Below the pieces are notes generated by a model, which was not told the DNA's origin, ran no database searches, and was given only the letters and a program-made list of their open reading frames with translations. Both the position numbers and the translations under genes were made by a program. Positions 2 through 47,252 of a stretch of DNA of 48,491 bases are shown here, piece after piece; position 1 is the stretch's first letter, and the number at the start of each line of letters is the position of its first letter. This DNA is from a virus. The DNA lies in the IMG/VR virus record IMGVR_UViG_3300034027_000008, positions 1 through 48,491 of that record; one strand, given 5' to 3'.

Positions 2-1435
2 GATGCGGTACTAACAGCAGCTATACCCGGAAGAGAGGGTTCAGACACTTGGTATATGGCACTCAATGAGGAAGGTGCGCTGGAGTTTATGCAAGATGCA
101 GCTTTTTGGGTAAAACAATATCAGCTGGCAGCTAGCAAAATTGAAGAAACGCTAATTGAAGACATTGATAAATCGATACTGGCGTATCGGATACGATTCG
201 AGTCTGGATATCGAGTAACGGGATTAACTTCAAGACCGTCCAACCTGAGAGGGAAACAAGGACGAGTTGTTGCTGATGAGTTTGCTTTCCATCCAGATCA
301 GATGGAATTACTCAAAGCTGCGATCGCGCTCCTGATGTGGAACGGAAGGATTCACATCATTTCCACCCACAATGGGATAGGAAATCCATTCAATCGATTA
401 GTAGAAGACGTTAAAGCAGGAAAGCGCCCATATTCTGTTCACACAGTAACCTTAGACGACGCCCTAAAAGATGGACTGTATAAACGTATTTGCTTGGCAA
501 CAGGTAAAGGATGGAACGAAAAAGCCCAAGAAGAGTGGAGGCAAGAACTAATTGATTTCTATGGCGATGATGCAGATGAAGAGCTGTTCTGTAATCCAAA
601 AGCAGCAAGCGGAACCTACATTCCCCCACTACTGGTTGAAGCAAGGATGGATAGGCGCTATTCGGTTGCACGACTGGCGCTTAAAGATGAATTTGCGGCA
701 TTGCCTCAGGCACGACAAAAGCAGGAAATCTACGATTGGATTGATGTCCATATCAAGCCATTTTTAAGGGCACTGCCACACTCTCAGAAAAGTTACTACG
801 GCATGGACTTTGGGCGAACGGGAGATATCAGCGCGATCGCGCCTATCCTGATCGAAAGTGATGTTCGTCGATACTGCCCAGTCATCATTGAACTCAGGAA
901 CGTCCCGATTCGGGCACAGGAATGGATTCTCTATGAGTTGGTAGATGGGTTGCCTAACTTTTCTGGGGGAGCGATGGATGCTAGGGGAAATGGGACGGCA
1001 TTGGCTGAATTTGCGGAAAGTCGGTATGGGGCATCTCGGATTGATAAAGTGATGCCAACTCAAGGCTGGTATCTAGAAGCGATGCCAGACTACAAAAAGG
1101 CGCTAGAGGATGATGTGTTCCGAATGCCTTATTACGAAGACCTGAAGACCGACCATGCGGCAATTAAGGAAGAAAATGGGGTGCCGAAGGTGCCGGAGAG
1201 TTCTCGCTACAAAGGTACTGATGGTGGCAAGCGTCACGGGGATGGAGCGATGGCTCTGGTGTTGGGGAATTATGCAGCACGGAAAAAGCAGGGTAGTGTC
1301 TTGCGGCAAACGGTGATGGAAGAGAGTGGGTATTATCCCAATGTCCGTGACTTCTTTAGTGCGGCATCGGCACGACGGGAGCGGGATGTGGAGAATGAGC
1401 GGATTTCGTCGCGGGAAGTTAAGGAGTATTTTTGA
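2..1435 (+). CDS. Phage terminase large subunit, Mu gp28-like (5' end outside window)
   Basis: This is the ATP-driven DNA packaging motor, which also cuts the concatemer with its C-terminal nuclease. The frame is open from base 2 with no stop, so the N-terminal part with the Walker A loop lies outside the window; the first ATG at 56 is probably internal. A Walker B-like segment VVADEFAF is at 266-289, and the coupling segment IISTHNG follows. The nuclease half shows DFGRTGD near 806-826, then GGAMDARGNG and RHGDGAMALVL, which are the acidic positions expected of an RNase H-fold nuclease. The arrangement matches Mu-like gp28 proteins. It is oriented away from the minus-strand genes that follow and sits 27 kb from the portal gene, which is unusual. 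A hairpin begins at its stop codon. Confidence 0.9.
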   Translation, partial: DAVLTAAIPGREGSDTWYMALNEEGALEFMQDAAFWVKQYQLAASKIEETLIEDIDKSILAYRIRFESGYRVTGLTSRPSNLRGKQGRVVADEFAFHPDQMELLKAAIALLMWNGRIHIISTHNGIGNPFNRLVEDVKAGKRPYSVHTVTLDDALKDGLYKRICLATGKGWNEKAQEEWRQELIDFYGDDADEELFCNPKAASGTYIPPLLVEARMDRRYSVARLALKDEFAALPQARQKQEIYDWIDVHIKPFLRALPHSQKSYYGMDFGRTGDISAIAPILIESDVRRYCPVIIELRNVPIRAQEWILYELVDGLPNFSGGAMDARGNGTALAEFAESRYGASRIDKVMPTQGWYLEAMPDYKKALEDDVFRMPYYEDLKTDHAAIKEENGVPKVPESSRYKGTDGGKRHGDGAMALVLGNYAARKKQGSVLRQTVMEESGYYPNVRDFFSAASARRERDVENERISSREVKEYF

Positions 1436-1462
1436 AGCGACCTACATTGTAATAGGTCGCTT
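1435..1462 (+). terminator. Hairpin directly at the terminase stop codon
   Basis: A perfect 10-bp stem (AAGCGACCTA / TAGGTCGCTT) with an 8-base loop begins on the last base of the terminase stop codon. No U-run follows; instead a GNNGA pentamer tract starts two bases later. It is probably a terminator or 3'-end stabiliser, but it does not fit a standard intrinsic terminator. Confidence 0.55.
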
Positions 1463-1463
1463 A

Positions 1464-1543
1464 GTTGAGATGAGAAGAGACGAGCAGAGCCGAGGAGAGT
1501 TGAGGAGAGACGGGTAGAGAAGAGACGAATGGAGGTGAGTCGA
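1464..1543 (+). repeat. Phased GNNGA pentanucleotide tract 1
   Basis: Sixteen consecutive pentamers keep one phase. Fifteen end in GA and fifteen begin with G, while bases 2-3 vary freely (gttga, gatga, gaaga, gacga, gcaga and so on). The tract begins right after the hairpin at 1435-1462. A period of five is incompatible with a codon repeat, and no convincing gene covers it. Confidence 0.8.
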
Positions 1544-1558
1544 GTTGTGGTGTCCTTC

Positions 1559-1601
1559 AATATTAAGCGATCGCGTAGAACTTAATCCGCGCGATCGCTT
1601 G
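1559..1601. repeat. HIP1 hairpin module, copy A
   Basis: Two HIP1 octamers face each other as inverted arms AAGCGATCGCG (1565-1575) and CGCGATCGCTT (1590-1600) around a 14-base loop. The whole module, including AATATT at its left and GGTTGAG at its right, is nearly identical to the copy at 2163-2203. A half copy (AATATTAAGCGATCGCGT) is also seen at about 1678-1695. Confidence 0.75.
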
Positions 1602-1671
1602 GTTGAGTTGAGCAGAGAAGAGGCGAACAGTGATGAATCGACAGGTAAGGAGCCGACGGGAAACGAGTCGT
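1602..1671 (+). repeat. Phased GNNGA pentanucleotide tract 2
   Basis: Fourteen pentamers stay in phase, 12 ending in GA; the first-position G is relaxed in the second half. The tract starts with GTTGA immediately after the HIP1 hairpin, as in the other tracts. On the minus strand it lies just downstream of the gene ending at 1694. Confidence 0.7.
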
Positions 1672-1693
1672 CCTTTAATATTAAGCGATCGCG

Positions 1694-2131
1694 TTAAAGG
1701 TTTGGCTTGATGTGCTTGTTCCAAATCATCTTTAATCCCGCCTGCCACCCCATCAAGTAGTAATGGTTCCACCAATCTTGAAAATCATGTGTTGAGAGCC
1801 TACCCTCCAGTGGATGAACGGAAAGCCTCTTTTTCTCTATAGCGCTAAGGTGCTTCAATGGTATCTGGGGTATGTACTGAAATGCGTCTTCAAATCCTTT
1901 TGAGTAAGGTTCTCCCATCTTTTCTAGTGTAAGCCTAGAAATGAAGTCACCAGCATCTCTATATTCCTGTCTTGCCACAGCAAAATAAATAGCCGATTGA
2001 CAAAGCGCAGACACATTTATATAGTCCTTGTTCTTCTGTATCCACTCTTTATTGCTGGATGTAATAGTTAAGTTTACTCGTTTCGCTTCTTTGCTTTTGG
2101 ATGCAGTAGCTGCAATTATTCGCTTTGTCAT
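1694..2131 (-). CDS. Hypothetical protein with possible ribbon-helix-helix N-terminus
   Basis: 145 residues, no family recognised. Residues about 18-55 (KRVNLTITSSNKEW followed by INVSALCQSAIYFAV) have the spacing of a ribbon-helix-helix DNA-binding unit: a short strand, a helix, then an NVSxLxxxAI helix. The C-terminus is rich in Trp and Tyr (WWNHYYLMGW). There is no strong Shine-Dalgarno sequence before the ATG. The stop codon abuts a HIP1 half-module, and the downstream strand carries the pentamer tract and hairpin. A regulatory role is possible but rests only on the N-terminal pattern. Confidence 0.6.
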   Translation of the reverse strand: MTKRIIAATASKSKEAKRVNLTITSSNKEWIQKNKDYINVSALCQSAIYFAVARQEYRDAGDFISRLTLEKMGEPYSKGFEDAFQYIPQIPLKHLSAIEKKRLSVHPLEGRLSTHDFQDWWNHYYLMGWQAGLKMIWNKHIKPNL

Positions 2132-2162
2132 TTGAAAGTCACAACCCTGTTTTTGCCTACCT

Positions 2163-2203
2163 AATATTAAGCGATCGCGTAGAGCTTAATTACGCGATCG
2201 CTT
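2163..2203. repeat. HIP1 hairpin module, copy B
   Basis: Second copy of the module: arms AAGCGATCGCG (2169-2179) and CGCGATCGCTT (2193-2203) around a 13-base loop, with the same left flank AATATT and the same right flank leading into GTTGA pentamers. It differs from copy A by a few bases, mainly in the loop. Confidence 0.75.
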
Positions 2204-2204
2204 G

Positions 2205-2294
2205 GTTGAGATGAGTTGAGCAGAAGAGAGATGAAAAGAGAGGAGCCGAGACGAGATGAGTCGAGTGGATGCGAAGGGAAACGAGGCGAGAAGA
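2205..2294 (+). repeat. Phased GNNGA pentanucleotide tract 3 (longest)
   Basis: Eighteen consecutive pentamers, all 18 ending in GA and most starting with G. The tract begins right after HIP1 module B and ends 10 bases before the 3' end of the minus-strand gene at 2304. On the minus strand it reads as (TCNNC)18, a C/T-rich leader into the hairpin. Confidence 0.8.
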
Positions 2295-2303
2295 ACTGTT
2301 CCT

Positions 2304-2795
2304 TTATCTTACGTCAATCAACTCTCGAATCGCATGCTTGGCATATTCCAACCCCGTGCTACGGGTTTTGGTTCCTTCCAGTTCCAGTTTTTTGCTGACC
2401 TCTTCTCCTATGACAAATTCCTGAATTCCCAACTTCAGGTGTGCTGTAACGTAAGACTTGAACTCTCTCTCGCTCAACTTACTAGTGTCAACAGTATTTA
2501 ACTCTGCTCTCCAGTAAGTAGTTTCTGACTGGATGCGCTTTTGTCGCTTATCAGTTACGGTTTTGGCTGCATCCTCTAGTAATGGGCGATAGCCTTCATT
2601 TAGAATAGAGGCAAACAAAATCTGATAGTCGCGCCGCACAATTTTCAGCGCATTATGCAAGTTACCTCTGAATTTGTGCTGAACGTTGCCGTTTAACAGT
2701 TTGCTCATCTCTTCAAACGTGGCGTTCTTCCCGGAGTGAGCGCACTCTTTGAGGTACTTAATTAAAGTCGAGGTTTCGTAAGACAGCTTCCTCAT
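2304..2795 (-). CDS. Hypothetical protein, last gene of a coupled three-gene operon
   Basis: 163 residues, family not recognised, mostly helical and charged (MRKLSYETSTLIKYLKECAH at the start, ELIDVR at the end). A strong Shine-Dalgarno GGGAGG lies just upstream. The ATG overlaps the TGA of the small gene 2792-2929, so translation is coupled. The N-terminal part (SGKNATFEEMSKLLNG) could form a small winged-helix-like unit, but this is weak. No promoter is visible directly upstream; it is probably expressed from upstream of 3513. Confidence 0.65.
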   Translation of the reverse strand: MRKLSYETSTLIKYLKECAHSGKNATFEEMSKLLNGNVQHKFRGNLHNALKIVRRDYQILFASILNEGYRPLLEDAAKTVTDKRQKRIQSETTYWRAELNTVDTSKLSEREFKSYVTAHLKLGIQEFVIGEEVSKKLELEGTKTRSTGLEYAKHAIRELIDVR

Positions 2796-2929
2796 GGCTG
2801 CCTCCCTTTAAGGAATTGCAGAATCGCAATAATGGCTTCCTTCGTTATGCAATGTTCGCCCTTTTCAATGGCAGCAAATGCAGCTTGATTCCATTGTCGG
2901 TTGGCGTACTGGCTGCTAAGAGTATTCAT
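2792..2929 (-). CDS. Small hypothetical protein, 45 residues
   Basis: A short frame starting MNTLSSQYANRQWNQ and ending FLKGRQP. It is supported by context rather than length: its ATG overlaps the TGA of the upstream gene (ATGA at 2926-2929), and its own TGA overlaps the ATG of the downstream gene at 2795. Both junctions are thus translationally coupled, and the strong GGGAGG serving the downstream start lies inside this frame. The product is soluble and helical, with an amphipathic C-terminal half. Function unknown. Confidence 0.6.
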   Translation of the reverse strand: MNTLSSQYANRQWNQAAFAAIEKGEHCITKEAIIAILQFLKGRQP

Positions 2930-3513
2930 GCGACCACGTCCTCCTCAATTTCTTTCCATTGAAGATCTAGCACCTTAAATCTGCCAAACGTTCCGTTATT
3001 TCGCACCCGAAACGTTCCCACGCCAATCAACTGCCCTGCTTGCTTGAGGTGGTAGAGGAAGACATCTTGGGTAATAGTTTCATCAAAAATGTAAAACGTT
3101 ACCAAGGCATCCCACCCTGGCTTGATGAAGGGGTAGCATTTGAGTACCCGCTTCCCTGACCCTCTCACGCCATCAGCTGGGACATGCATCCAGTTGCCGG
3201 AGACATCATCCTTATGAATACCAAGGGGGATGTCATCTACTACCAAAACCCCAGCTTCAAAGTGTTTGGTGTAAGTAGACTTCCCTTTCCCAGGAATCTG
3301 CTGTCCCAAGAACTTTGCAGCTTCAGCAATGCAGTTTTTGAATGCTAATGCAGGAATTACTACTTCCCCCGTTTCTGTTGTATGTAGCCGTTCTTTCCAC
3401 GTTCGTTTTTCATAATCATCCGCCAACTCCTTGTTCAGCTTTGGTGTGTTGTGAAAGCGGGACTGGGAGTAAGGCGACACACCCTTAAGCGTTGCTATTG
3501 CCAGCTTGGTCAT
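2926..3513 (-). CDS. Conserved phage-type hypothetical protein (possible RAMP-like fold)
   Basis: 195 residues from the ATG at 3513; a TTG three codons upstream is the alternative. The pattern IPALAFKNCIAEAAKFLG near the middle and GVGTFRVRNNGTFGRFKV near the C-terminus resembles a family of phage/plasmid proteins with a glycine-rich G-x-G-x-FR loop reminiscent of RAMP-type folds. I infer this from pattern only and do not know the function. It is the first gene of a three-gene operon with ATGA overlaps. Confidence 0.6.
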   Translation of the reverse strand: MTKLAIATLKGVSPYSQSRFHNTPKLNKELADDYEKRTWKERLHTTETGEVVIPALAFKNCIAEAAKFLGQQIPGKGKSTYTKHFEAGVLVVDDIPLGIHKDDVSGNWMHVPADGVRGSGKRVLKCYPFIKPGWDALVTFYIFDETITQDVFLYHLKQAGQLIGVGTFRVRNNGTFGRFKVLDLQWKEIEEDVVA

Positions 3514-3547
3514 ATTTTTCAAGAATACATAGACATATGATAAACAA

Positions 3548-3572
3548 AAACCCAGGTTCAGAACCTAGGTTT
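3548..3572 (-). terminator. Intrinsic-terminator-like hairpin
   Basis: The arms AAACCCAGG and CCTAGGTTT pair with one mismatch or wobble around a 7-base loop. On the minus strand the second arm runs into TTTTTGTTTA, so it would stop minus-strand transcripts arriving from upstream of 3.8 kb before they enter the three-gene operon. A fourth pentamer tract starts three bases beyond on the plus strand. Confidence 0.5.
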
Positions 3573-3574
3573 TG

Positions 3575-3609
3575 GTCGAGTCAAGTTGAGATGTGGAGCG
3601 ATGAGTGGA
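3575..3609 (+). repeat. Phased GNNGA pentanucleotide tract 4 (short, degenerate)
   Basis: Seven pentamers beginning GTCGA, four ending in GA and all starting with G. Like the other three tracts it begins immediately after a hairpin, which supports treating hairpin plus tract as one unit. Confidence 0.55.
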
Positions 3610-3649
3610 GTAGTAGTTTAATGTTAACGAAACATTGAGGGAGGCAAAG

Positions 3650-3791: not shown

Positions 3792-4703
3792 TTAATTGTC
3801 GATGTCAATTGGAACTAGAATCGCTCCATCTTTATCCTGAAAAAGCTTGAGTTGAACGGGTGCCTCAGGTAGTCCCAGCAGCTTACAGATGGACGGCAGG
3901 CTGGTAGGGTCTTTCTTTCCCAAGTAACGCGCTAGGCTACTGGGCTTCCACTGGTTGTCAAACCATGCCCGAAACTCTTCTAGCCAACCGTTGGGGTAGA
4001 TGTTGGCTTTTACGGGGAGCTTCCAGCCAGGATACCAGTGCGGATACTTCTGCGCGATCGCGCTCACCGCATACCCTTTTGACCTCATGTGCTTGCAGAA
4101 CATTCGCCCGATTGAGATGTCGGGGACTATCCGCGAGTTATCCACCGGGCTGTAGTCAGGGACAACATAGCCCAGGTTTTCTAACTGCCACATGAGTTTG
4201 GCAAGTTCTTCAAAGATGCAGAACCAACCACTGGGGATAGTCGTGCGCTGGATGAATAAACGCTGACGCTCTGCCCAGTAGCCGACGAGGGAGGCTTGAG
4301 AGGGTTTCTTGTTTGGGTCATACCCAGTCTGCGACCAAATGTACAACCGCATCCCAGCCTTGGATATCATGCGGAAGTTCGCGATCGCTATGTCCTTTCC
4401 TTTGTACTGACGGGCATCGAACGCATAGTATTCCAGTACGGCTTGGCAAACTTCGTCCAGAATGAATCGACGCCCCTGAGGGTCATTAACTGACAGCCTC
4501 AACTCCTTGCTAGCAAAGGATTTTAGCGAATCTTTCAGATCGTTCACGAACGGGTCAGATTCGCGAATTTTGTCTAGCAGGTCAGAAATGGTCTGCTTTC
4601 TGTTACCTGTAAATTGAGCCAATGCAGTCACAGTCATTCCACTGGCACCATCACTCTCGCGAGTGTAGAAGCCAAACTCGTCATTATTCTTGGTAAGATT
4701 CAT
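3792..4703 (-). CDS. Putative phage regulator / antirepressor-like protein
   Basis: 303 residues from the ATG at 4703, which has a GGAGGG ribosome site; an upstream in-frame extension to 4820 runs through the promoter region and is rejected. Residues about 20-45 (GMTVTALAQFTGNRKQTISDLLDKI) look like a helix-turn-helix. The middle segment VLEYYAFDARQYKGKDIAIANFRMISKAGMRLYIW resembles cyanobacterial proteins often found beside phage regulators. The Trp-rich C-terminal half is unassigned. The gene is divergent from the XRE gene at 4849 across a 145-base control region, the layout of a regulator/antirepressor switch. Function is inferred from context. Confidence 0.55.
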   Translation of the reverse strand: MNLTKNNDEFGFYTRESDGASGMTVTALAQFTGNRKQTISDLLDKIRESDPFVNDLKDSLKSFASKELRLSVNDPQGRRFILDEVCQAVLEYYAFDARQYKGKDIAIANFRMISKAGMRLYIWSQTGYDPNKKPSQASLVGYWAERQRLFIQRTTIPSGWFCIFEELAKLMWQLENLGYVVPDYSPVDNSRIVPDISIGRMFCKHMRSKGYAVSAIAQKYPHWYPGWKLPVKANIYPNGWLEEFRAWFDNQWKPSSLARYLGKKDPTSLPSICKLLGLPEAPVQLKLFQDKDGAILVPIDIDN

Positions 4704-4800
4704 GATTGCCCTCCATAGGCAACTTGTGGGGTAGAAGCGATCGCGCAACCAGATCTCCAGTCGAAGAAACGCGATCGCTTTTAAATCTCTTGAAATATTG

Positions 4801-4831
4801 TATACTGAACAAGCAAACAATACTAGCTAGT
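4801..4831 (+). promoter_or_regulatory. Candidate promoter and operator of the XRE gene
   Basis: A -10-like TATACT at 4801-4806 has a weak TTTAAA about 16 bases upstream. A perfect 10-bp palindrome ACTAGCTAGT at 4822-4831 lies just before the TTG start at 4849, a natural position for an autoregulatory operator. Confidence 0.4.
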
Positions 4832-19796: not shown

Positions 19797-20284
19797 TACT
19801 TTCCTCCCTTCCACTTCTTAACTAAATACGCCAACACGGCTTTTGCCATCTCCTCCTGCAACTCCTCATGCCAGTACAAAATCGGACGACCAAAACCTTC
19901 TAGCTTGGGGGCGCGAGAATCTTTGAGTTCGTAAGTGAATTCATTCCCTTGAACGTCGTAGGTGTTCCCGCTTCCCCCTTCCGTTACTGCCCCCTGAAAA
20001 AGAGAGCCTGTTGCAATATGAACTTGACCTCTAGCGCGTTCGGGGTGGAGCAGCAGGGTGTAGCGAGACAATGGAGCATGGTAGGCACCGCCATAGACAA
20101 CCCCACCCGTTAACGTACTGGGTTCGGAAAGGAACAAGGGGTTAAGGTGCTTATCCCGAACTACTTCAGCCAGTTCGCGGGAGATGGGAGAAAGGTCGTC
20201 AAGGGCGTCACTGATACCATCTACGCGATCGCGCAAGTCATCAAAATCAACTCCCGTAACTTCCATTGAGATATTCAGTGGCAT
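19796..20284 (-). CDS. Phage virion morphogenesis / tail completion protein (Mu gpG-like)
   Basis: 162 residues. The N-terminus MPLNISMEVTGVDFDDLRDRVDGISDALDDLSPISRELAEVV follows the pattern of the phage virion morphogenesis family, and the C-terminal part (IATGSLFQGAVTEGG, GFGRPILYWHEELQEEM) fits its conserved serine-rich strand and the R-P-hydrophobic motif. Members complete tails or connect head and tail. Both neighbours are basic LATF-family proteins, and the start of this gene abuts the stop of the upstream one. Confidence 0.75.
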   Translation of the reverse strand: MPLNISMEVTGVDFDDLRDRVDGISDALDDLSPISRELAEVVRDKHLNPLFLSEPSTLTGGVVYGGAYHAPLSRYTLLLHPERARGQVHIATGSLFQGAVTEGGSGNTYDVQGNEFTYELKDSRAPKLEGFGRPILYWHEELQEEMAKAVLAYLVKKWKGGK

Positions 20285-20835
20285 TACCTGCGCCTCCTGT
20301 CTTCCCGAATCCGCTTAACACCATAGGCAGTAGCTCCAACAGTTCCACCTGTTACAGCCCCACTTAATCCACCTTGGATGCCGCCTAAAGTACCTCCAAT
20401 CGCACCAACACCAAGGGCACCTAATCGACCGAGTCCAGCTTTTCTAGCTGCGGCATAACTTCCAGCACCGCCTAAAGAAGCCCCCAGCGCACCACCGGAC
20501 AATGCGCCATATGCTGCTCCTTTGCTTGTGTGTCCACCAAATGTAGGCTTACGGCGGCGAGAACCTGCACGACGGCGACGGCGAAACTCGGCAAGCCGAA
20601 CTGAGGAACTGGCAGAACGAAATCCAGTCTTTTGCTTTGCCCAACCTACGCCAGTACCCAATCCACGCCCTACGCGACTCACTGCGCTTTTGATACCAGG
20701 ACGAGCAAGAAAGTTTTTGGCACGTCTCTTAACTCCCGCAAACACACCTTTCACCCGTCCCCCTATACCTGGACGAGTCCATCCCGTATTAGGACGAATG
20801 GCTAAAGCACTGGACTGGAATCGGGTAAGCCTCAT
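20284..20835 (-). CDS. Basic glycine-zipper protein (LATF family)
   Basis: 183 residues. The N-terminal 100 residues are Arg/Lys-rich, with RLAEFRRRRRAG at 80-91. Residues about 103-175 form a long glycine-zipper region of two hydrophobic segments (AYGALSGGALGASLGGAGSY and LGALGVGAIGGTLGGIQGG) that could insert into membrane or pack as helical hairpins. The C-terminus ends in RIREDRRRR. No enzymatic motif. The composition suggests a packaged DNA-associated or ejected protein, which is inference. Confidence 0.65.
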   Translation of the reverse strand: MRLTRFQSSALAIRPNTGWTRPGIGGRVKGVFAGVKRRAKNFLARPGIKSAVSRVGRGLGTGVGWAKQKTGFRSASSSVRLAEFRRRRRAGSRRRKPTFGGHTSKGAAYGALSGGALGASLGGAGSYAAARKAGLGRLGALGVGAIGGTLGGIQGGLSGAVTGGTVGATAYGVKRIREDRRRR

Positions 20836-22609: not shown

Positions 22610-22703
22610 GAGGGAGTAGGTGGTAGGGGTTAGGTGGTAGGTGGTAGGGGTTAGGGGTTAGGTGAAAGGCAGAGCCTACAACCTATAACCTACAACCTCT
22701 CAC
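22610..22703. repeat. G-rich short direct repeats with C-rich counterpart
   Basis: Runs of GGTAGGGGTTAGGT and GGTGGTA units (about 22618-22661) are followed by CCTACAACCTATAACC-type units (about 22676-22704). The two halves are partly complementary, so the spacer can form a long imperfect hairpin, and the G-rich strand could form G-quadruplexes. It is the only long non-coding gap within the head module. Confidence 0.55.
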
Positions 22704-23006
22704 CTATTTCTTGGTTGGAGCTTGTAGAGTTCCTGATGTTGGCGTTTGCGTTTGGTCGGCTACCAACTCACTACCCCCACCGTAAGCAGGAGGTTCCCAA
22801 GTTTTAAATTGCTGGGGTGATGGTGGAGCTTTTAAAAAATCGGGCTTTCTAAAAGCCTCTGCAATTTGCCCTAGCCGCCAAACATAAGGAGTGGGGGAGG
22901 GGTCAGAAGGAGTGAAGTCATACCCTTGCCCTACGGTCTTTTGGTAGAAGCTGGTGTGGACGACTACTTGTTGATTTGTGTTGTTTAAATTTAATTCTTC
23001 CGGCAT
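22704..23006 (-). CDS. Hypothetical head-module protein, 100 residues
   Basis: MPEELNLNNTNQQVVVHTSF through PTSGTLQAPTKK, with GGAGGT before the ATG. It is Pro/Gln-rich with little hydrophobic core, and may be partly disordered. No family recognised. Its C-terminus runs into the G-rich repeat spacer. Confidence 0.6.
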   Translation of the reverse strand: MPEELNLNNTNQQVVVHTSFYQKTVGQGYDFTPSDPSPTPYVWRLGQIAEAFRKPDFLKAPPSPQQFKTWEPPAYGGGSELVADQTQTPTSGTLQAPTKK

Positions 23007-26604: not shown

Positions 26605-27951
26605 TTAGCGGGTGTTCTTCCTGATGCGACCACGTCTACGTGGAGGTAGTCCAGGTCCCATAGGCACCGACTGCGGGAGGTCTGGCCCGTACATTCTTCC
26701 AGCTGGTGGACCACCGCGACTTCTTCCTCGCAGTATGTCTGAACCTCTATCTAGTCCACGAGCAAGACCGTACCTTGCTCCTACTGCTCCGCTATTAAGA
26801 GATCTACCTACCCCTGCTGCGTCTTTTTTTAATAGACCAAGTCCCGCACCTTTTCTGAGGTATCTGCGTCCAGCCAGACCTGCACCAATCGCACCCGCCA
26901 AAGCACCAGCTCTAACAACACGGCCTGCTGTAGTGCGACCTAAGACCCTAGACCCTTTGCCGCGCTTGCGCTTACGTCGAGCAAATTCTGCGCGATCGCC
27001 TCCATACAACTCAAACGCAGCCTGAGCCATGTTCATTGCCATATTTGCTTGCCTCTCTTGTGTAATTAACTGTGCGCGAGTTTGCTTGGGTGGTGCGCCA
27101 CGACCAGGTACAGCTTCTTCTTCGCCCACCATCGGCTCATCAAGACCCACCAAGCCAGCTACGCGATCCATAAACTTTTGCAGGGCATCCATCTGCAATT
27201 GCTGCGGGTCTTGCCCTTCTAACTCTTCGTCTGGAGCCTGAGAAATACCGATCGCGATATCCCAATAGGTTTCGGCATATTGCATAAACTGTTCGTACAG
27301 TTCATCAGAATCCAAGCTTTCTTCCTCAGCCTGCTCCCACGTCAGCGCAAACTTCGCGTCTTTTTTGCGGCGGGAAAAGATTCTCAGTCCCGCGATCGCA
27401 GGCGTGGGCGTGGCGGAAACTTCCTTGATGATGTCAACGGCAATATCTAGTCCCGGAGAAAGGGTAGAGATAATCCCGTCTTTAACTTTCTCGACAACTT
27501 GTTTACCCCGTCCCACCAACTTATCAGCAAAAATCCCCAGCTTTCCTACGAGGTGAAAGCAGCGGGGGTCTGTGATGTCTGCTTTCGTAACACGGCGAAC
27601 TTCTACCGAGCCATCCAAATCGCCGATAGTGTCCCACTGCGTTTTCTTGTGGTCAGTGAGCCACGGGATACGGTTACCCTGACTGAACCATCGATTGGTA
27701 TTTTCTGCGATTTGGATTACGCGATCGGCAGGGAATCGATGCGGTCTACCTTGAGAATCTACATGGTTTCCCTCCACTAAAATCAAAGCTTTTTTGACAA
27801 CAACAGAATCATCTTCCTCAGCTATGTCGCCAGGAATTAAAGGTACGTCGTTATTAAAATAGCGAACGTCTTCCCGCTTAACTTTTAAACCGAGCGAAGC
27901 CGAGGTTTTAGTTGCTAAACGAGAACGTTGACGGGCTGCAATTCCCGACAT
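26605..27951 (-). CDS. Prohead serine protease with basic glycine-zipper C-terminal extension
   Basis: 448 residues. The N-terminal half matches the layout of prohead proteases: IPWLTDHKKTQWDTIGDLDG with the candidate catalytic His101, IISTLSPGLDI with Ser162 or Ser165, and IKEVSATPTPA corresponding to the conserved EvSxvxxPA segment. After about residue 325 comes RAEFARRKRKRGKG, a glycine-zipper stretch (VVRAGALAGAIGAGLAG) and an Arg/Gly/Pro-rich tail. This is the same module as in the small basic proteins, here fused to the enzyme. It is the first gene of the minus-strand operon. Confidence 0.75.
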   Translation of the reverse strand: MSGIAARQRSRLATKTSASLGLKVKREDVRYFNNDVPLIPGDIAEEDDSVVVKKALILVEGNHVDSQGRPHRFPADRVIQIAENTNRWFSQGNRIPWLTDHKKTQWDTIGDLDGSVEVRRVTKADITDPRCFHLVGKLGIFADKLVGRGKQVVEKVKDGIISTLSPGLDIAVDIIKEVSATPTPAIAGLRIFSRRKKDAKFALTWEQAEEESLDSDELYEQFMQYAETYWDIAIGISQAPDEELEGQDPQQLQMDALQKFMDRVAGLVGLDEPMVGEEEAVPGRGAPPKQTRAQLITQERQANMAMNMAQAAFELYGGDRAEFARRKRKRGKGSRVLGRTTAGRVVRAGALAGAIGAGLAGRRYLRKGAGLGLLKKDAAGVGRSLNSGAVGARYGLARGLDRGSDILRGRSRGGPPAGRMYGPDLPQSVPMGPGLPPRRRGRIRKNTR

Positions 27952-27984
27952 AGCTGAATAAGGTTAAAAACACATAGCCTTACA

Positions 27985-28011: not shown

Positions 28012-28036
28012 GTTTTTGGTTGATGGAGGTCTAAAC

Positions 28037-28282
28037 ATGGTCTTAACCTGTCCGAAAGAAGACTTTAAAACACTAACAACTGACGAGCGAAGAGGACGAT
28101 TGATTGCAGCTGCCTGCGAACTAAGAGGCTTGTCGCGATCGCAACTAGCAGCAGCGATTTTTGTTACGCCTCGCCAGTTAAGTAGGTATTTAGCAGGAAA
28201 ATGCCGAGTTGATGCCGACAAGCTAGAGGCAATAGCAGACGCCACAGGACAACCAATAGAAGCGTTTAAAGTTTCTTGTTAA
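28037..28282 (+). CDS. XRE-type helix-turn-helix regulator
   Basis: 81 residues from the ATG at 28037, which has GGAGGT upstream. The HTH is RGRLIAAACELRGLSRSQLAAAIFVTPRQLSRYLAGK, followed by KLEAIADATGQPIEAFKV, a full Cro/CI-type fold. It is divergent from the prohead protease, across only 85 bases, which makes it a likely regulator of the long morphogenesis operon or of itself. Its stop meets the stop of the convergent gene at 28283 back to back. Confidence 0.8.
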   Translation: MVLTCPKEDFKTLTTDERRGRLIAAACELRGLSRSQLAAAIFVTPRQLSRYLAGKCRVDADKLEAIADATGQPIEAFKVSC

Positions 28283-28843
28283 TTACCAATAAAAAGGAGA
28301 AAATTTTGATAGCGAAAATGTTGATAGTTTAGCTGAACTTGACCGAAAGCGACCTGGATCTAATTTTGAAGAACGCAAGTTATACGCACCTCGATGCGTG
28401 TCTCGATAAGCATCCCACTCATTCCAGTTTTTCTTGCTGCGTTTGCGTCCTCCAGGCTTTCCCAGTCGCACCGATCGCTCGATATTGGCATCGGGAGAAC
28501 GCCCCACGGGTAAGGTGTAGTAGTCGGGATGATGTCGCCCCTTACCTGGTATATGAACCAAAACCCCACCGCGCACGGGTTTTCCTGCTGGAGCTATCAA
28601 CCCAGGAGTTAATCGCCTTGGTTTAATGCGTGGGCGATTGGGACGACGCCGTTGATTTAATGGAAAGGCTTTTGTGCTGGGTTTTTCTATGACTGGCTTG
28701 AATGGGGAGGGGTTGGATTGAGGCGGCTTTCTTCTGGCTAACAGTAAGCCTGTTCCCAAGACACCAACCCCTGCCCCCGTCAAAGCTAAATTCCGAAGCC
28801 TAGCGTTGCGTTGCTTTCGTTTTTTGCGATTTAATACAGGCAT
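28283..28843 (-). CDS. Basic protein with glycine-rich membrane-like segment (LATF-like family)
   Basis: 186 residues from the ATG at 28843. The N-terminus NRKKRKQRNARLRNLALTGAGVGVLGTGLLLARRK joins a basic run to a glycine-zipper helix. A long Pro/Arg-rich middle follows, and the C-terminus reads SSAKLSTFSLSKFSPFYW, with an LSTF variant of the motif. It is convergent with the XRE gene and divergent from the portal gene. It is Arg-rich and has no enzymatic motif; an internal virion role is inferred. Confidence 0.6.
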   Translation of the reverse strand: MPVLNRKKRKQRNARLRNLALTGAGVGVLGTGLLLARRKPPQSNPSPFKPVIEKPSTKAFPLNQRRRPNRPRIKPRRLTPGLIAPAGKPVRGGVLVHIPGKGRHHPDYYTLPVGRSPDANIERSVRLGKPGGRKRSKKNWNEWDAYRDTHRGAYNLRSSKLDPGRFRSSSAKLSTFSLSKFSPFYW

Positions 28844-28877
28844 ACGCACCAATGCGTCACTATTTCAACACTCTACC

Positions 28878-30308
28878 TTGGTCTACCTTCCTCACCGAGC
28901 CAATAAAACGGGGAATATTATCAAGCATCCTGCCCTAGCGTCGGCAGGTTTGTACAGCAACCCCATTGCGCGATTGTCCCAAGAAGTCGTACAAGAGTTG
29001 TCGTGGAGTCCCCCAAAAGACAGGCTAAACAAAAAGCAACTCAAGAAATACTCGCTTGAAGACTACGCCGAAGTTCTGCTGCTTGATGAAGTAATTGGCT
29101 TTTGCTTTCAGCTCATTAAGCTTCGCGCTACAGAAGCATTTGGCAAATACACCCATAACGACGACAAGGTGGCAGAGTTCGTCAAAACCAACTTTGCCGA
29201 CATGGACGGCACAATCGAGGAGTTTGTTGGCATTGCCGTCGCCCTCGCCTACTTTTTTGGCTTCTTCACCGGTGAGATTGGGTGGAAGTACAACTCTCCA
29301 GGATTTTATCGCCAGCAACGACTCAAGTGCTTCCAGTCTCATAACCCCCTAACTACGCGATTCAAGGGAAATAAGCACGGATTATTCTGGGTAGTCGATA
29401 AAAGTGGCAATAAACCCGTCGATATCCCCTACGAAAAGTGCATCCACATCTGTAATCGGATGTACGAGAATGACCCCTACGGATACGGTAGCCTTGCCCG
29501 CACGATTGGGTTATTCAAAGCCAAGCGCACCACGTTAAGCGCAGCGGCTGTAGCGGCAAACAACCAAGCTAATGGGTTGTGGATTGTCCGCGCCAACACT
29601 GCCGATACCGTTGTATTGACTGATAAAAACGGCAAGCCCTTACAAGAAAACGGTCGCGATGTTATCGCATCCTCTATTGAAAACGCATTTAATCAGTTAA
29701 AAGACTTTGATAAAAATAACTTCCTAATACTAGATAAATCCTATGAAATCAACTGGCAACCCATGCCCGTTGATGCAGGATTTATGCAGAATATGTTGGA
29801 GGGGATTGACAGGCGACTATTCATGACACAAAACGTACCGTATTTAGTTGCAAATGAGGGCAGTGGAGGTTTCGGTTATACCGGCGTCGCCGCCCAGCAA
29901 GCTATTACCTTAGATAGTCAAATCAGTGCCTTGGTTAAACAGGTCCGTGACCAGGTGCTTGAAAAAGTTATCAAGCCGATGTTGATTCGGAACTTTGCCC
30001 TCAAGCCCAAGCAGGGGTGGGGTAGGTTTGATGTGGATAAGTCGTCAGACCCGAATCAGGCGTTGTCCCAAGTCAATACTATTAACGGTTGTGTGACAGC
30101 AGGAACGCTAACGCTTGATACTACAGTTAAGAATAAGGTGCGAGAATTGTTGGGATTACCCCCACAAACAGAAGAAGAGCAACTTGCAGCTCTACAAAAA
30201 TCAGTAGAGGCACAAGCCATGCAACAGCGGGCTATGCAGCAAGGAGCGTCGGGGGGAGAGCAACAACCACCTACAGGCGATGAAGCAGCAAAGCAAAATT
30301 ATCCATAG
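28878..30308 (+). CDS. Portal protein, Mu gp29-like (DUF935)
   Basis: About 476 residues; the frame is open from 28806 but that would overlap the divergent gene, and no ATG occurs until deep in the protein. A TTG at 28878 is used here with low certainty. The portal is the dodecameric ring at the head vertex. Family features: YAEVLLLDEVIGFCFQLIKLRA, then PYGYGSLARTIGLFKAKRTT, and VAAQQAITLDSQISALVKQVRDQVLEKVIKPML with the following FDVDKSSDPNQAL, all typical of Mu gp29-like portals. The C-terminus is Gln-rich. Confidence 0.85.
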   Translation: MVYLPHRANKTGNIIKHPALASAGLYSNPIARLSQEVVQELSWSPPKDRLNKKQLKKYSLEDYAEVLLLDEVIGFCFQLIKLRATEAFGKYTHNDDKVAEFVKTNFADMDGTIEEFVGIAVALAYFFGFFTGEIGWKYNSPGFYRQQRLKCFQSHNPLTTRFKGNKHGLFWVVDKSGNKPVDIPYEKCIHICNRMYENDPYGYGSLARTIGLFKAKRTTLSAAAVAANNQANGLWIVRANTADTVVLTDKNGKPLQENGRDVIASSIENAFNQLKDFDKNNFLILDKSYEINWQPMPVDAGFMQNMLEGIDRRLFMTQNVPYLVANEGSGGFGYTGVAAQQAITLDSQISALVKQVRDQVLEKVIKPMLIRNFALKPKQGWGRFDVDKSSDPNQALSQVNTINGCVTAGTLTLDTTVKNKVRELLGLPPQTEEEQLAALQKSVEAQAMQQRAMQQGASGGEQQPPTGDEAAKQNYP

Positions 30309-39931: not shown

Positions 39932-40237
39932 TCATTTGGGCAAGTTTTCCCTATACTCCCGGATGCAACTCAATACAAACGCCAAAGCTTCCTCATGCGG
40001 CATCCAAGACGCTTCAAAATCATCTTGACCGTAATCGCTTTCTTTGTAATAAACCAGGTTCTCTTCGGCAACAGCATCATCGAGAGTTGGCGCGATCGCG
40101 CAATCCCAGTGATTCCCCCTTGCCCTGAAGTAGAGGTGCAATCCATCCAGTTCTCCCTCGAATTGCACCGGTGCTGAAACACACGTACAACTTATCTCGA
40201 CACCCATGTCTTTGACAGTTTGTGTTAGTCCATCCAT
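39932..40237 (-). CDS. Hypothetical protein, 101 residues
   Basis: Starts at the ATG at 40237, with AAGGAG upstream (the preceding in-frame TTG is ignored). It is acidic with four Cys/Trp-containing turns (VEISCTCVSAPVQF, HWDCAIAP) and ends SCIREYRENLPK. No family recognised. It sits between palindrome copies 6 and 7 as a single-gene unit. Confidence 0.6.
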   Translation of the reverse strand: MDGLTQTVKDMGVEISCTCVSAPVQFEGELDGLHLYFRARGNHWDCAIAPTLDDAVAEENLVYYKESDYGQDDFEASWMPHEEALAFVLSCIREYRENLPK

Positions 40238-43798: not shown

Positions 43799-44072
43799 GA
43801 TGAGATTCCAAGTTTTGGCGATAGGTCTGGACACTGTCATTCCATTTGTGAGCATCAGCTAGTCTGCGTGATAGCGAAGCGCTGCTGCGAAGCGCAGATC
43901 GCGCTTTAGCTGGCTGAAGTTTCACACTCCCATTTGCCTGAATTCGTCCAAGCTGCTGGCACAGTTCACATTGCTGCCAGCTACTCAAATTAAGGGAATC
44001 CCAAATTTCTAAAAACCTTCCACTCTTAGGAGGTTGGAGATAGAGCGGTTGCCAGTGGTGGGTGCAGTTCAT
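43794..44072 (-). CDS. Small hypothetical protein with possible metal-binding Cys/His
   Basis: 92 residues (MNCTHHWQPLYLQPPKSGRF at the start). Cys/His pairs (NCTHHW and QQCELCQ) could form a zinc site. The rest is Ser/Arg-rich helix. No family recognised. Terminates within palindrome copy 11. Confidence 0.55.
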   Translation of the reverse strand: MNCTHHWQPLYLQPPKSGRFLEIWDSLNLSSWQQCELCQQLGRIQANGSVKLQPAKARSALRSSASLSRRLADAHKWNDSVQTYRQNLESHL

Positions 44073-45776: not shown

Positions 45777-47252
45777 ATGATTTTGAGCTATGTCTACAAA
45801 CTACGTCCTTCTGGCAGTCAATCTGCCACGATGGAGGCATGGCTCAATATGCTGCGAAGTCACTACAATTGGTGCTTGGCTGACCGAATTGAAACCTACC
45901 ACGCTCAGTTCATTCAAGGCGCGTATTGCAAGTTAAGAACCAAGGCTGAAGCTTCTCCTTTAACCTGTTGCATTGTAAAAAGCGGTGCAACAGGGAACCC
46001 TTGGCAGGATAGCGGGAAAAAGCGAAATGCTGGCACTATCCAAGACGCTGGATTGGTTGAACTTAAAGCAGCTCGTCCTTGGTACAAATCAATCGATTCG
46101 GACGTGTTGCAGCGTAACATTGCTCGGCTGAATACTGCTTACAAAAACTTCTTTGATGGGCGAGGATTTCCAGCATTTAAAAACCGCAGCAACTTTCGAT
46201 CATTTGAGTACAAGCCCGGACGGGTAAAGATTGAGAGGAACAAGGTGTATCTACCAAAAGTTGGGTGGATGCGCTTTTTCAATTCTCGTCCCATACCTAA
46301 TGGGTTTGCTATCAGAAGTGTAACTATCCGAAAGAAAACTGACGGGTGGTTCATGTCTGTACGCCTAGAAGACAGCTCCATCCCAGAACTATCAGTTCTG
46401 CCTACATCGGATATCAAGACGGCTGTAGGCTTGGACATGGGGATAACAAAGCTGGTGCATTGCTCCGATGGTAGCGACATTAGTAATCCTAGATTTGGCA
46501 CCAACAAGAAGACTCGTCGGCTCCTCAAGATTCGGCAGCGTCGATTGAGTCGTACCAAGAAGGGTGGTCAGAATCGTAAGAAGTTAGTTGCACAAGTAGC
46601 TGCCTTGCACAACAAAACTGTCAACCGCAGAAGCGCTTATCAATGGCAAGTTGCCAACAAACTAGTCAAGAAAGCGGATGCTGTTGTGGTGGAAAACCTC
46701 AACATCCAAGGCATGGTGAAGCGGTGCAAGCCCAAAAGGGACGAAAGCACCGGGCGTTTTTTACCCAACGGTCAAGCGGCTAAACGTGGCTTAAATCGTT
46801 CTATCTTAGATGCCTCGTGGGGAGAGCTAATCTCCAAGATTGAGTACGTGGCTGCAAAGTCAGGAAAAATCTTGCTCAAAGTTGACCCACGGCACACCTC
46901 TCAGACGTGTAGCGCTTGTGGCTTTGTCGATAAAGCTAGTCGAGACAGAGAGAAGTTTATTTGCACTGAGTGCGGACACTTCGATCATGCTGACAAGCAG
47001 GCTGCACGCAATATCAAACAGAAAGCCGTCTTAGAGTATGGCTTGACTTTGATTAAGGTACGCCGGGACTCGGCGGAACCCAGACAGTTAACGCTGTTTG
47101 AGACGCCCAGCGCTGAATTAACACCGCCTAAAAGGAGACATCCCCGCGCCCACAAGGGCAAACGCGGGGAGCCTGGGAACCTGAAAGTACAGTTAGACTT
47201 GTTCTCTCAGGATATATGGAATGTGAGTTCTATAGAATCTCCTGATTTCTAA
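45777..47252 (+). CDS. tnpB: TnpB-type RNA-guided nuclease (IS200/IS605 OrfB family)
   Basis: 491 residues. RuvC-type catalytic residues are all visible: Asp220 in VGLDMGITKL, Glu306 in VVVENLNIQGM and the third Asp at about 406 in FDHADKQAARN. The zinc ribbon CSACG (378-382) and CTECG (396-400) lies between the last two. The N-terminal wedge/REC part precedes. It carries a longer C-terminal tail than many TnpB proteins (QLTLFETPSAELTPPKRRHPRAHKGKRG), overlapping the predicted guide RNA. TnpB nucleases cut DNA guided by an omega RNA and help retain the element. The nuclease is predicted active. Confidence 0.92.
   Translation: MILSYVYKLRPSGSQSATMEAWLNMLRSHYNWCLADRIETYHAQFIQGAYCKLRTKAEASPLTCCIVKSGATGNPWQDSGKKRNAGTIQDAGLVELKAARPWYKSIDSDVLQRNIARLNTAYKNFFDGRGFPAFKNRSNFRSFEYKPGRVKIERNKVYLPKVGWMRFFNSRPIPNGFAIRSVTIRKKTDGWFMSVRLEDSSIPELSVLPTSDIKTAVGLDMGITKLVHCSDGSDISNPRFGTNKKTRRLLKIRQRRLSRTKKGGQNRKKLVAQVAALHNKTVNRRSAYQWQVANKLVKKADAVVVENLNIQGMVKRCKPKRDESTGRFLPNGQAAKRGLNRSILDASWGELISKIEYVAAKSGKILLKVDPRHTSQTCSACGFVDKASRDREKFICTECGHFDHADKQAARNIKQKAVLEYGLTLIKVRRDSAEPRQLTLFETPSAELTPPKRRHPRAHKGKRGEPGNLKVQLDLFSQDIWNVSSIESPDF

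Follow-up and report, generated by a model that had tools for sequence, protein, structure and literature searches.

VIPR (Viral Interference Programmable Repeat) systems, as described in the main text of the preprint PMC13142463, combine a small phage RAMP protein, Vipr, with an accessory protein, Vap, and guide RNAs (vrRNAs) composed of 9–16 YNNGG units (GGY/NN) followed by a 3′ tail. The NN letters of these RNAs read double-stranded DNA (dsDNA) with one skipped base, and the systems are used against competing phages (PMC13142463). The SUSP1 locus has a single vrRNA ahead of vipr and three more after it, and its tracts have been shown to give rise to transcripts that are bound in RNA form (PMC13142463). 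Here we analyze four phased pentamer tracts in the virus record IMGVR_UViG_3300034027_000008, a stretch of 48,491 nucleotides (nt) that we refer to in its entirety as the window. The window is a cyanophage, its host being a (filamentous) cyanobacterium; the phage has a Mu-like head module and the record starts within its terminase gene. The tracts are very probably the vrRNA guides of a VIPR locus in this phage of a filamentous cyanobacterium, built on a CTC/NN scaffold.

Vipr, Vap and the layout of the locus

The protein encoded among the tracts and all 63 scanned homologues belong to phrog_4652, a family of unknown function. A phmmer search of the PDB with the window protein gave a single match, 36pp, the "SUSP1 Vipr protein" (E 0.011); with a homologue as the query the E value for 36pp was 1.4e-4, and two profiles of the family returned 36pp as their top match (E 5.9e-9 and 2.1e-10). 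The AF2 model of the window Vipr (pLDDT 95) has as its nearest folds Cas7/Csm3 subunits from CRISPR effectors of types VII and III (Foldseek E 1.7e-9, Z about 12). Entry 36pp was not among the results of this PDB fold search, possibly because it is missing from the library, which comprised entries with release dates up to 2026-04-08. The window Vipr is an ancestral single-RRM RAMP of the Cas7-like type. No match to it was found in the GenBank phage collection.

The open reading frame (ORF) cluster that includes window 2304-2795 adjoins vipr in 67/81 loci examined, and its members are divergent, sharing 11–24% identity. The AF2 model of the window member (pLDDT 91.5) is helical with a winged-helix-like N-terminal part; Foldseek matches were weak, none with E < 0.001, and many of the top ones were winged-helix proteins. 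Vap is therefore predicted to be an accessory protein of the DNA-binding type, which fits the "predicted DNA binding" vap that the preprint describes for type II, and we infer that the window locus is a type II VIPR.

Profiles built from the window families also detect their SUSP1 counterparts, the Vipr profile matching SUSP1 28474-29061 (E 2e-15) and the Vap-family profile matching 28031-28471, which is vap1 (E 7e-9). As a positive control, the tract finder used on the window was run on the first 50 kb of Escherichia phage SUSP1. It found GGT/NN tracts at the vipr locus only and on the vipr strand, one upstream (29172-29226) and two downstream (27892-27966 and 27749-27818), with a repeated tail; hence two of the three reported downstream vrRNAs were recovered.

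In the window the order along the minus strand is vrRNA 4, vipr, vap, vrRNA 3, an extra ORF, vrRNA 2 and vrRNA 1, so that one vrRNA lies upstream and three lie downstream of vipr and vap, all on the vipr strand (Table 1). The first-pass annotation had read the tracts from the plus strand as GNNGA pentamers, each beginning right after a hairpin. The hairpin linkage is genuine, since on that strand 2 bases separate every tract from a preceding stem-loop, but the hairpin is not a leader. Read from the minus strand, each tract ends in CTCAA or CTCGA, followed by C-C/T and, 2 nt past the tract, by the stem-loop. The tracts are therefore to be read as CTC/NN arrays, and the hairpin is the structured 3′ tail of the RNA. 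Tails 2 and 3 are nearly identical; tails 1 and 4 have only the layout in common.

The Vipr match, the Cas7-like fold, the vap1-like neighbor and the SUSP1 layout together identify this as a VIPR locus and the tracts as its vrRNAs. Like the SUSP1 system (type II; PDB 36pp), it has a single-domain RAMP Vipr, an adjacent vap1 homologue, vrRNAs that share the strand of vipr, one ahead of it and three behind, units of 5 nt with three fixed and two free letters, and a structured 3′ tail. The predicted Vipr fold and the logic of a helical RNA-binding filament are also shared with the backbones of class 1 CRISPR-Cas systems (Cas7/Csm3, types III and VII). In contrast to these, the window Vipr is a single small RAMP with no second RRM, and its RNA would carry interrupted, 2-of-5 information rather than a contiguous spacer and repeat. 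A class 1 CRISPR-Cas assignment was rejected because the tracts have two free letters per 5-letter unit and no spacer-repeat alternation; PADLOC found no Cas effector among the four neighboring ORFs, the only ones scanned for it.

Pentamer phasing and tract–protein linkage

All four tracts were borne out on re-inspection at the positions first annotated, in strict 5-base phase. The excess of pentamers ending in GA also stands as a pattern, although the recount gives 48/55 (15/16, 11/14, 18/18 and 4/7) in place of 49/55, the second tract having been scored as 12/14; G occupies pentamer position 1 in 43/55. Exact (GNNGA)x4 occurs 12 times in the window, confined to the first three tracts, and not once in 100 dinucleotide shuffles. 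A period-5 G-test over the window gave three peaks, of 38.3, 37.6 and 26.7, whereas shuffled sequence reached 22–24 at most; the fourth tract has few units, and these are degenerate. As the annotation stated, the 5-base period is not a codon repeat, and the tracts are not coding. Bases 2-3 are indeed free and bases 4-5 fixed: every one of the three long tracts has 10–12 different dinucleotides at positions 2-3. NN entropy of 1.8–1.95 bits per position beside a near-fixed triplet departs from the equal column conservation of a simple tandem repeat. The argument that this split marks a recognized element is thus upheld, with the amendment that the information would be expected to reside in the free NN and not in the fixed GA. 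As for the partner, the triplex DNA that had been considered gives way to Vipr, the protein encoded between the tracts. The concern that the pattern might be generic, genome-wide low complexity is not borne out: the window holds no further tract, and such tracts were found in only 1/227 control windows (8 kb each, from cyanobacterial plasmids and cyanophages) and 0/35 unrelated viral loci.

Tract and protein proved to be linked in both directions. An IMG/VR scan with the tract pattern alone, (GNNGA)x6, returned 120 stretches, most of which are monotonous simple repeats with near-zero entropy at positions 2-3. In a few loci with several tracts (L121, L137 and L078) these positions are free, with up to 1.95 bits, and exactly these loci, along with L020, are the ones in which a homologue (41–66% identical) of window ORF 2926-3522(-) is encoded. 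Because the search used the tract only, this link is independent evidence. Conversely, triplet/NN tracts lie beside vipr in 73/80 loci under a strict model and in 80/80 by a laxer period test, and 201/204 tracts are located within 1.5 kb of vipr; the tract finder returned 0/80 for shuffled loci. The locus counts rest on the 80 closest of 181 viral homologues, which were fetched; since these contain near-copies (62 are distinct at a 93% cut), the counts do not represent independent events. The relative G007 carries ten CTC/NN tracts in a row, of 12–25 units each, with NN identity between tracts no better than 0.31. Its tails, CC[GA]AACCCCGTCAGCGATGGCGGGGTTTCTCAT, are near-identical over the ten copies and have the CC-linker-stem layout seen in the window.

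Table 1 Features of the putative VIPR locus in the window (vrRNA, candidate guide RNA)
Feature	Coordinates	Strand	Remarks
vrRNA 1 guide tract, 16 CTC/NN units	1465..1544	-	NN 5′-3′: GA AC CA GT TT TA GT TC AA TC GG TG GT TT AT AA
vrRNA 1 tail: CT 2-nt linker, then stem-loop AAGCGACCTA..TAGGTCGCTT	1435..1464	-	abuts terminase stop codon
vrRNA 2 guide tract, 13 units	1603..1667	-	first base of triplet less constant (NTC/NN)
vrRNA 2 tail: CC linker, stem-loop AAGCGATCGCG..CGCGATCGCTT	1565..1602	-	HIP1 GCGATCGC inside
vrRNA 3 guide tract, 17 units	2206..2290	-	
vrRNA 3 tail: CC linker, stem-loop AAGCGATCGCG..CGCGATCGCTT	2169..2205	-	
vrRNA 4, 7 units (4 exact CTC), short and degenerate	3576..3610	-	upstream of vipr
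vrRNA 4 tail: CC linker, stem-loop AAAACCTAGG..CCTGGGTTTT and T-run	3547..3575	-	intrinsic-terminator-like site
vipr gene	2926..3513	-	phrog_4652 family, RAMP/Cas7-like; ORF listing starts at TTG 3522, likely start ATG 3513
vap gene	2304..2795	-	predicted winged-helix-like; relatives have the family directly after vipr; family profile detects SUSP1 vap1
ORF, no assigned function	1694..2131	-	lies between vrRNAs 2 and 3; AATATTAAGCGATCGCGT direct repeats on either side

Triplet diversity, proposed mechanism and target search

The best triplet on the vipr strand varies among the 80 loci (GGC 41, GAC 10, CGC 10, CTC 5, GTC 2, AGT 2, AGC 1, GTT 1 and GGT 1), while its last base is a pyrimidine in 73/73, as in GGY. 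A tree of 83 Vipr proteins places the window together with six further CTC systems and with L265, whose triplet is CTC at a relaxed cut-off. Mapping the triplet labels on the tree takes 26 changes, compared to 39.9 for shuffled labels (0/200 shuffles), indicating that triplet type goes with the protein lineage and has switched repeatedly. At alignment position 127, a tyrosine is present in 15/19 proteins whose triplet begins with C and a phenylalanine in all 57 whose triplet begins with G or A. Tyr127 emerges on several distinct branches of the tree, and because phenylalanine is also found with some C-first triplets, position 127 is a lead rather than a rule. On balance, it seems probable that VIPR lineages have diversified the triplet held by the protein: nine triplets occur within one Vipr clade (most members ~51–66% identical to the window Vipr), all end in a pyrimidine and they track the protein tree. 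A few residues would then set the triplet, and Vipr-guide pairs may be mutually orthogonal.

The minus strand encodes Vipr, Vap and four vrRNA genes, in each of which a 2-nt linker joins the tract to its stem-loop tail. In the mechanism we propose by analogy with SUSP1, the vrRNAs would be transcribed, and Vipr subunits would line up in a filament along the tract, one per pentamer, each gripping the fixed triplet. The free NN pairs would read dsDNA with one base skipped per step (NNxNNx), a skip rule taken over from PMC13142463 and applied here to the window. The target would thereby be repressed, and probably consists of genes of competing phages. Decoded in this manner, guides 1, 2 and 3 would give the patterns GAnACnCAnGTnTTnTAnGTnTCnAAnTCnGGnTGnGTnTTnATnAA, GTnCCnGGnCTnCTnGAnATnTGnGCnTTnTGnAAnAA and GCnGTnCCnGCnCAnGAnATnGTnGGnCTnTTnATnTCnTGnAAnATnAA, respectively.

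When the window guides were decoded with skips of 0–3 and compared with 3.7 Mb of sequence, only chance-level matches were obtained apart from the tracts themselves. With 166 guides of relatives and the same 3.7 Mb, a skip of 1 performed no better than skips of 0 or 2 or permuted guides. IMG/VR scans with 8-unit parts of guides 1 and 3 gave 23 and 12 matches, in unrelated, non-cyanobacterial genes and with the remaining units mismatched; most of these lie in codon frame with the skips at third positions, but the proteins are unrelated, so this is not evidence. One guide of the close relative L256 matches a gene of cyanophage G003 at 22/26 letters, every skip falling on the third base of a codon (permutation p 0.007 before correction, not significant over 15 guides). 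By eye, we take this gene to be terminase-small-subunit-like.

Competing interpretations and adjoining features

Several observations weigh against the VIPR assignment or set the window apart from SUSP1. The fixed triplet of the window is CTC, not the published GGY. However, the definition in PMC13142463, "GGY/NN motifs, or a related consensus" (fig. S17), admits related motifs, and CTC therefore marks a variant rather than a non-member. CTC is absent from the main text of PMC13142463; the triplet CTC in this lineage, as opposed to the described GGY, is what we regard as new, without claiming priority. The host is a cyanobacterium, another difference from SUSP1. The window tails are plain stem-loops that differ between copies, with a common layout and not a common sequence, compared to the one invariable, pseudoknotted tail in PMC13142463. 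Several units of vrRNA 2 are only NTC and vrRNA 4 is short, so not every copy need work. No significant target emerged for the window guides. Lastly, the lone match among the control windows, phage G001 (IMGVR_UViG_3300036939_000049), has a vrRNA-like GGT/NN tract (L139:6522-6590), while no Vipr of this clade could be detected on its contig. This tract has the same period, occupies the same site after the homologous terminase gene and is followed by a hairpin; it lies ahead of an intrinsic terminator, and its triplet is the canonical GGY.

The departures in vrRNAs 2 and 4 raise the question of whether the locus is partly decayed, with vipr intact and some or all vrRNAs (tracts 2 and 4) no longer functional guides. 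We consider this unlikely, though it is the best of the alternatives. Only 4 of the 7 units in tract 4 are exact CTC and only 7/14 in tract 2 are fully exact, yet tracts 1 and 3 are long and regular, drift at the first triplet base occurs in relatives too, and the window Vipr is full-length, keeps the invariant residues of its family and is 93% identical to the Vipr of another phage.

Five bp is half a helical turn. This spacing, the winged-helix-like fold predicted for Vap and the period-11 iteron-like arrays of related cyanophages would suit tracts that are not RNA genes but serve Vipr or Vap as binding sites on the DNA, phased by half a turn (iteron or centromere type). That reading is highly improbable, as the partner has a RAMP (RNA-binding) fold, the stem-loop with its 2-nt linker follows the tract on one strand only, and NN variation is needless in a binding site; moreover, the homologous SUSP1 tracts are reported in the main text of PMC13142463 to be transcribed and RNA-bound. 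The period-11 arrays themselves are degenerate, with an AGTTCA-like core, resemble arrays of iteron or centromere type and are located at G003 20053-20570 and 139088-139413 (two sets), G001 40031-40188 and W02 40243.

Less probable still are transcription terminators with an upstream rut-like loading site at gene ends: the minus-strand tracts do lead into stem-loops, and a T-run follows the stem-loop at 3547-3573, but the strict period of 5, the free NN, the triplet switching and the link to one protein family would all go unexplained. A generic degenerate tandem repeat between cyanobacterial genes, of the heptamer STRR type, is hardly credible: such tracts, found in cyanobacterial plasmids and at window 22611-22707, are likewise intergenic, tandem and partly degenerate (TAACTGA-type), but they have period 7, no vipr neighbor seen and no consistently free dinucleotide, simple repeats have near-zero NN entropy, the one tract among the control windows is another phage's GGT/NN tract, and the tracts are tied to vipr. 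The window heptamer tract (KTAGGKG) is degenerate, has an inverted counterpart and lies between two structural genes.

Ideas that were dropped comprise a rut/terminator element, a pac site beside the terminase, centromere iterons, a G-quadruplex and a codon repeat. An Rfam search of the window and four relatives gave no family and no hammerhead, the tract region had no match in phage and plasmid DNA, and a genome-contig scan with CTTNGTTGAGNNGAG... returned unrelated matches only.

The AATATTAAGCGATCGCGT direct repeats (1559-1576, 1678-1695 and 2162-2179) flank the ORF at 1694-2131 and overlap vrRNA tails; this ORF may be a cassette gained via recombination between vrRNA units. A BstA-like abortive-infection protein is encoded next to the VIPR locus at 3792-4820 (-) (phrog_6287, E 1.7e-41; PADLOC BstA, E 3.2e-42), which suggests a block of anti-phage genes. 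Elsewhere in the window, 45777-47252 (+) presumably encodes a TnpB-like transposon protein, as judged by eye, and 39 bp at 43870-43908 share 97% identity with plasmid sequences from Nostoc sp. C052 and Allocoleopsis franciscana PCC 7113.

The locus places the newly described VIPR systems in cyanophages and provides independent support for the account of the locus in the main text of PMC13142463. Not all VIPR guides are built on a GGY scaffold. In dozens of viral contigs the tract predicts the protein and vice versa, such that VIPR guides can be found by sequence alone, whatever their triplet. If few Vipr residues read the triplet, separate guide sets would be possible for different Vipr proteins in one cell, and the protein–triplet rule would be testable through residue swaps.

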